DNA from: Bacteroidota bacterium
GTDB lineage: Bacteria > Bacteroidota > Bacteroidia > Palsa-965
Assembly: GCA_013298545.1 (NCBI GenBank)
Contig: JAAFIA010000029.1
Location: 1 to 50,375 of the forward strand
Length of the DNA: 50,375 bases
Direction: 5' to 3'
The notes under the pieces were generated by a model. That model had not been told where the DNA came from, made no database searches, and worked only from the letters and a program-made list of their open reading frames with translations. This document shows positions 5,603-5,970 of the stretch, in pieces; the stretch's first letter is position 1; each line of letters begins with the position of its first letter. A program made the position numbers and the translations under genes.

Positions 5603-5641
5603 TTGAAAAAAGAAAAGCCCTCCAAGGTTGTGGAGGGCTTT
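5603..5641 (-). terminator. metY leader terminator 2 (attenuator)
   Basis: On the transcript the arms AAGCCCTCCA and TGGAGGGCTT have a 6-nt loop and are followed by a U-rich run. It sits about 35 nt before the metY start codon and after leader frame 2, so it would stop transcription before metY unless disrupted. Confidence 0.85.
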
Positions 5642-5679
5642 GTGCGCATGGGTGGTTGTGTATTACCTAAAACTATGCA

Positions 5680-5724
5680 TCAACATCGCTCTCCGTCGGA
5701 AAAGCGCATGCAACACATCATCAT
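5680..5724 (-). CDS. putative Met/Cys-rich leader peptide 2 of metY
   Basis: The frame reads MMMCCMRFSDGERC and then stops. Seven of the 14 codons are Met or Cys and six are consecutive at the start. It ends about 40 nt before terminator 2. A segment in codons 11-13 (GGAGAGC) can pair with the GCCCTCC of the terminator 5' arm with one mismatch, which could give an alternative antiterminator. Translation is inferred from composition and position. No Shine-Dalgarno is visible, as is usual in this phylum. Confidence 0.6.
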   Translation of the reverse strand: MMMCCMRFSDGERC

Positions 5725-5785
5725 AGCGATGTTGGCAGGTGTTGTGTATGGCGTGTTTAGGTTCATTGATTTTGATCTTGGTAGA

Positions 5786-5827
5786 AGACATAAAAAAGCC
5801 CTTCAGGAAGTGCTGAAGGGCTTTTTG
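5786..5827 (-). terminator. metY leader terminator 1 (attenuator)
   Basis: The 14-bp arms AAAAAGCCCTTCAG and CTGAAGGGCTTTTT enclose a short loop and run into Us. It follows leader frame 1 by about 20 nt and precedes leader frame 2. Confidence 0.9.
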
Positions 5828-5845
5828 TGATTATGGTTGATTTCA

Positions 5846-5920
5846 TCAACATGCACAAATGCAGCACCCTTCAGCGAAGAGACGCATACATGTACACATG
5901 GTGTTGTAGTTCTTATTCAT
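5846..5920 (-). CDS. putative Cys/Met-rich leader peptide 1 of metY
   Basis: A 24-codon frame starts about 18 nt after the -7 promoter element. Six codons are Cys (9, 11, 19, 20, 22, 24) and three are Met (1, 8, 12). Codons 8-12 read M-C-T-C-M. Codons 16-18 (GCTGAAGGG) are perfectly complementary to CCCTTCAGC in the 5' arm of terminator 1. A ribosome paused at codons 9-11 would leave that segment free to form an antiterminator, while one that reaches the stop would cover it. Expression is inferred. Confidence 0.7.
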   Translation of the reverse strand: MNKNYNTMCTCMRLFAEGCCICAC

Positions 5921-5937
5921 TGTTTTTTTCTGTGGTG

Positions 5938-5970
5938 CAAATATAAAATCGTTTTTTCTTACGATCCAAA
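5938..5970 (-). promoter_or_regulatory. promoter of the metY leader
   Basis: On the minus strand a -33 TTTG (5967-5970) is separated by 21 nt from a perfect -7 element TATATTTG (5938-5945). This is one of the best promoter matches in the window. It sets the start of a leader of about 360 nt before metY. Confidence 0.8.

Follow-up and report, generated by a model that had tools for sequence, protein, structure and literature searches.

The metY locus and its leader region

The window, i.e. the whole analysed stretch of 50,375 nucleotides, contains a metY gene on its minus strand (Table 1). The product of metY makes homocysteine and, potentially, cysteine. Reading along the minus strand, a promoter, leader 1, terminator 1, leader 2, terminator 2 and the ATG of metY at 5568 follow one another, and all elements named in the preliminary description of this DNA (promoter, both short frames, both terminators and metY) are present in that arrangement. 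The promoter is one of three matches to the Bacteroidota pattern in the window when both strands are scanned. The metY leader RNA (367 nt) displays a folding z-score of -5.6 in comparison with shuffled sequences.

Table 1. Features of the metY locus, with examples of metY loci that combine a SAM-I riboswitch and a Cys leader
Feature	Position	Strand	Remarks
metY, O-acetylhomoserine aminocarboxypropyltransferase/sulfhydrylase	4234..5568	(-)	TIGR01326, 664.9 bits (cut-off 495.1)
Bacteroidota-type promoter TTTG-21-TATATTTG	5938..5970	(-)	sequence pattern
Leader ORF 1, MNKNYNTMCTCMRLFAEGCCICAC	5846..5920	(-)	24 codons, 6 Cys, 3 Met; ATG 5920, stop 5846
Leader 1 antiterminator segment GCTGAAGGG	5867..5875	(-)	codons 16-18; able to pair with the 5' arm of terminator 1
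Intrinsic terminator 1 (attenuator 1)	5793..5826	(-)	14 pairs, -20.1 kcal/mol, U-tract
Leader ORF 2, MNLNTPYTTPANIAMMMCCMRFSDGERC	5680..5766	(-)	probably 28 codons; in-frame upstream ATG 5766
Putative leader 2 antiterminator segment GGAGAGC	5688..5694	(-)	1 mismatch in 7 against GCCCTCC in the arm of terminator 2
Intrinsic terminator 2 (attenuator 2)	5614..5641	(-)	11 pairs, -18.1 kcal/mol, U-tract
SAM-I + Cys-leader example	L029:1608-1718
SAM-I + Cys-leader example	L039:1651-1764
SAM-I + Cys-leader example	L020:1651-1761

The codon count and the Cys and Met content of frame 1 are as described before. Its ATG lies 18 nt past the end of the -7 box (5938), a distance that argues against a leaderless start of the kind seen in mycobacterial polycysteine ORFs. 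Frame 2, with its MMMCCM motif, had been described as 14 codons long. The motif stands, and the 14-codon form, starting at 5724, is the internal part of a frame that probably begins at the upstream ATG, which is preceded by the A-rich AAGATCAAAATCA. Such an A-rich start context is typical of Bacteroidota. An overlapping frame of 42 codons (5791-5663) lies immediately past terminator 1; it contains a single Cys and was set aside.

At gathering score, Rfam models match two tRNA genes across the window and leave the metY leader unmatched, with no T-box; SAM-I (RF00162) has no match in the window, also when a tailored model is used. The models rnk_pseudo, trpB and Phe_leader appear at a permissive threshold, below their gathering scores, and were rejected; all three matches include a terminator hairpin.

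Among 11 further genomes from the family of the window, none has a comparable metY, and the search for conserved leader DNA within this family gave short low-score matches only. Directly after comEC, relatives carry a homologue of the window ORF 3315-4010 (L202, L211) or ndk (L203, L204, L208). Hence, metY together with its promoter and leaders (4234-5970) looks like an insertion between comEC and ORF 3315-4010. In the metY protein tree, the protein of the window falls among sequences of SAM-type Cyclobacteriaceae (97% SH-aLRT).

Pairing of leaders with terminators and the ribosome footprint

Both leaders display clustered Cys and Met codons in a short ORF, and an intrinsic terminator lies between each ORF and the gene, as in trp-type attenuators. 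In leader 1, GCTGAAGGG pairs perfectly with CCCTTCAGC of the terminator 1 arm, which bears out the complementarity noticed previously. Leader 1 reaches -20.7 kcal/mol with its own terminator arm, the best value among all arms compared, and its antiterminator exceeds dinucleotide shuffles at p=0.003, the lowest p that this test can give.

Seven loci supplied 12 leader-terminator pairs, for which pairing was computed between the leader, from the start of the Cys cluster onward, and the 5' arm of the terminator. Leaders and terminators were chosen by scripted rules written for this analysis, which favours the finding of pairs. The mean energy is -15.2 kcal/mol with the 5' arm of the own partner versus -10.5 kcal/mol with the arms of other loci, and none of 20,000 permutations reaches the observed sum. 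The 3' arm displays no partner preference in this first set (-8.4 versus -8.2). An independent set of 9 pairs from other classes, for which the rule was fixed beforehand, again displays the preference (p=0.0039).

For footprint folding, a mask covered the RNA as far as 13 nt beyond the first A-site base, and the transcript was ended before the 3' arm of the terminator. The footprint size is the textbook value. For every one of the 12 first-set leaders, the antiterminator is predicted to be accessible with the A site on the Cys/Met cluster, and to be lost about 1-4 codons past the last Cys/Met codon of that cluster; the second set behaves alike. The model thereby places the control codons as in a trp-type attenuator, where a stalled ribosome would free the antiterminator and a finishing ribosome would hide it. 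It also agrees with the earlier proposal that MCTCM in leader 1 sits at the right distance for a stalled ribosome, as this cluster is where the ribosome is predicted to free the antiterminator. Dinucleotide shuffles of the segment from cluster to terminator give a combined Fisher p=7e-6 for 20 leaders, several of which, at other loci, are not significant alone, and p=1.6e-4 when the two leaders of the window are left out.

For leader 1, pairing, footprint folding and shuffles alike point to an antiterminator that competes with the terminator, and leader 1 is the strong attenuator candidate of the two. The complete terminator is always preferred at equilibrium in the folding model, even with a stalled ribosome; therefore, antitermination must be kinetic. 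Kinetic antitermination is usual for attenuators.

The antiterminator of leader 2 is weak alone (p=0.07 by dinucleotide shuffle, p=0.197 by codon shuffle), in agreement with the weaker equivalent that had been reported for frame 2. Its accessibility is predicted mainly for a ribosome at codons 16-21, i.e. at the MMCCM cluster, and MMMCCM has the same cluster-to-antiterminator spacing as the cluster of leader 1. The position occupied by leader 2 also holds Cys/Met leaders in four other metY loci (L100, L103, L112, L258) and matches the position of the Cys leader in SAM-type loci. The assignment of leader 2 as a probable attenuator hence leans on homologous designs, its own pairing being the weaker of the two.

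Recurrence across Bacteroidota and a model of serial attenuation

Upstream regions of 150 metY genes from Bacteroidota and near relatives were compared, in a sample biased toward relatives of the query. A Cys-dense leader was defined as a short ORF, within the last 400 nt before metY, in which 3 or more of 8 codons are Cys. Such ORFs are present in 86 of the 150 regions, whereas dinucleotide shuffles yield 2-9 and the antisense strand 5. The stricter definition (at least 4 Cys in 8 codons) retains 67 of 150, versus 0-1 in shuffles and 0 in antisense. The complete order of leader, terminator, leader, terminator and metY is found in five further loci from three other families: family f3 contributes L100, L104 and L112, the full set of metY-bearing genomes found in it, f11 contributes L103, and f83, outside the class of the window, contributes L258. 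With these five double loci, the 86 regions and the partner-specific pairing, the co-occurrence of Cys/Met codons, complementarity and terminators in relatives, which the preliminary description had put forward as a check, is confirmed.

On the metY tree, from which L258 is absent, the two-terminator type needs at least 3 changes when well-supported branches only are counted. These repeated changes may suggest convergence, or transfer followed by leader exchange. Many Bacteroidota Cys leaders lack a recognizable intrinsic terminator, and the exact mechanism is therefore not universal for the leader family. Within f11, five members (L037, identical to L161, and L107, L114, L159, L160) carry two Cys/Met leaders and no clear terminator pair.

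In the genome of the window itself, 36 matches to Cys-x-Cys-Met-like DNA were found. Among the 30 of these that were read, only the two of the present locus combine a Cys/Met leader with a terminator of clean stem and U-tract. Three hairpins beside other Cys ORFs among these 30 passed the terminator scan and were unconvincing by eye.

Based on this dataset, we hypothesize that metY is controlled by two classical ribosome-mediated transcription attenuators in series, a reading to which we assign a probability of about 0.8. From the parts and their order, the partner specificity across loci, the recurrence in other families and the footprint geometry in the folding model, we infer that the frames are translated, that ribosomes stall and transcripts terminate, and that Met is sensed beside Cys. 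RNA polymerase would start near 5935 at the promoter. When Cys-tRNA or Met-tRNA is scarce, a ribosome would be held at MCTCM of leader 1 and leave codons 16-18 free; while the 3' arm of terminator 1 is still to be made, these codons could pair with the 5' arm, resulting in read-through. When charged tRNA is ample, the ribosome would run on to codons 16-24 and hide this segment, and terminator 1 would form. Transcripts that pass terminator 1 would meet the same test again at MMMCCM of leader 2 and terminator 2. Full metY expression would be expected only under a shortage of sulfur amino acids, and the off state would be multiplicative and low-leak. End-product sensing through scarce Cys- and Met-tRNA had been proposed before; pairing, footprint and recurrence support this reading, in which Met-tRNA may be sensed beside Cys-tRNA.

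Other explanations have to be considered. Leader 1 may be the sole attenuator, with the second hairpin acting as a largely constitutive terminator or spacer structure and frame 2 being fortuitous. The shuffle values of the leader 2 complementarity, not significant alone, are what this explanation predicts. However, it has to treat as coincidence that frame 2 carries MMMCCM at the spacing of leader 1, that its antiterminator is predicted to be accessible mainly with the ribosome on this cluster, and that Cys/Met leaders are located in the same slot of L100, L103, L112 and L258, a slot which equals the Cys-leader position of SAM-type loci; we regard it as unlikely. Alternatively, two plain terminators may insulate metY, the short frames having arisen by chance. 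Terminator-like hairpins are indeed common by a simple scan (3 found versus 3.4 expected), but chance does not account for an order that recurs in several families together with partner-specific complementarity, and an unconditional double terminator directly downstream of the promoter would silence metY. This explanation appears the least probable of those considered here.

Sensing by a riboswitch (for SAM or another ligand), a T-box or an RNA-binding protein in place of a translating ribosome might be expected from the SAM-I riboswitches that precede most Bacteroidota metY genes. However, the window displays neither an Rfam match at gathering score besides the two tRNA genes nor a SAM-I element by the tailored model, and the single SAM-I riboswitch found in this genome (C100:4119-4224, L162) precedes a T-run hairpin together with a gene for a class I methyltransferase and metH. 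A riboswitch would also leave unexplained why Cys/Met-dense frames stand in register with the complementarity, and we consider this kind of sensing highly improbable.

The proposed serial attenuators resemble those of trp, his, thr and ilv in the short ORF rich in codons for the end product, the mutually exclusive antiterminator and terminator, and the predicted geometry of the stalled ribosome. They differ in the use of Cys/Met codons, in the gene controlled (metY), in their occurrence in Bacteroidota and in the presence of two complete same-codon attenuators in series. Tandem leader ORFs are known from Salmonella mgtCBR, where mgtM (ATP) and mgtP (proline) form an arrangement that was presented as singular in 2012 (PMC3641672). 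Two leader ORFs in series on one transcript are common to both systems; those of mgtCBR respond to different signals, whereas both metY leaders carry Cys/Met codons and belong to another gene in another phylum (PMC3641672). Cys-codon-rich short ORFs are shared with the mycobacterial polycysteine leaderless ORFs, described as cysteine-responsive attenuators (Canestrari 2020, as cited in PMC13236596); as far as that citing account goes, the metY locus differs in that the ATG of leader 1 probably follows a short 5' UTR and in having an intrinsic terminator per ORF.

The uORFC-8-2 motif before cysS in Rhodobacterales likewise combines tandem Cys codons in a uORF with a subsequent intrinsic terminator, unlike the metY locus as a single unit at a different gene and with no Met codons described (PMC8632094). 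Within the phylum of the window, leader-peptide attenuation has been inferred upstream of amino-acid biosynthesis operons of Flavobacterium psychrophilum, the main text of that report describing neither a Cys/Met double leader nor metY (PMC9723704). A double Cys/Met leader, or a pair of SAM riboswitch and Cys leader, was not found for Bacteroidota in the open PMC literature, which is weak evidence since subscription papers lie mostly outside it. The proposed model would extend tandem ribosome-mediated attenuation from mgtCBR to a core gene of sulfur metabolism, recurring across Bacteroidota families.

SAM-I riboswitches and two proposed regulatory slots

A SAM-I riboswitch was located upstream of 100 of the 150 metY genes from Bacteroidota and near relatives (Rfam and the tailored model R1), and 71 of these 100 loci also carry a Cys leader. 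The first in-frame leader ATG lies 5-15 nt past the last aptamer base in most of the 71 loci (mode 7), so that SAM may gate translation of the leader ORF. The B12 riboswitch with a uORF at M. tuberculosis metE/ppe2 provides a precedent for the riboswitch and uORF of these SAM-type relatives, with another ligand, in another phylum and not in the layout of the window (PMC11260477).

Neither Rfam nor the tailored model finds a SAM-I riboswitch in the tandem-leader loci. Since, in addition, the protein tree needs repeated changes, it looks as if a second Cys/Met leader has repeatedly taken the place of the SAM sensor, in several lineages. Met enrichment in the leaders of SAM-less loci amounts to p=0.2 under the looser and p=0.025 under the stricter leader definition, both values being uncorrected and phylogenetically non-independent; that Met codons took over the function of SAM is only suggested.

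We tentatively hypothesize, at roughly even odds, that Bacteroidota metY genes possess two interchangeable RNA slots. In one common form, SAM-I is placed about 7 nt before the start codon of the Cys leader, where SAM may gate the leader; the SAM slot would have been swapped independently for a second Cys/Met leader-attenuator in several lineages, with Met sensing moved from aptamer to codons; and in other classes a leader-attenuator would be followed by a SAM riboswitch. Loci with a SAM riboswitch and Cys leader and those with tandem leaders would form a natural series, with riboswitch and leader peptide in the same regulatory slot. Such a metY series would allow direct tests of how sensors are exchanged and of what two serial gates are worth.

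A Cys/Met leader with terminator is located upstream of a SAM-I riboswitch in L246, L247, L248 and L276 (f90) and in L274 and L275 (f83). These six loci display the two sensors in the order opposite to that of the window's class. Of the f11 loci, L158 has a long AATC tetranucleotide repeat array directly upstream of metY and no Cys leader. A recurrent hairpin (GUUGCUC-loop-GAGCAAC), with its 5' arm made up of the Cys codons of leader 2, is seen in L037, L107, L114, L159 and L160. A second hairpin, often with the loop CAGGAAG, lies behind it, and no clear terminator is present.
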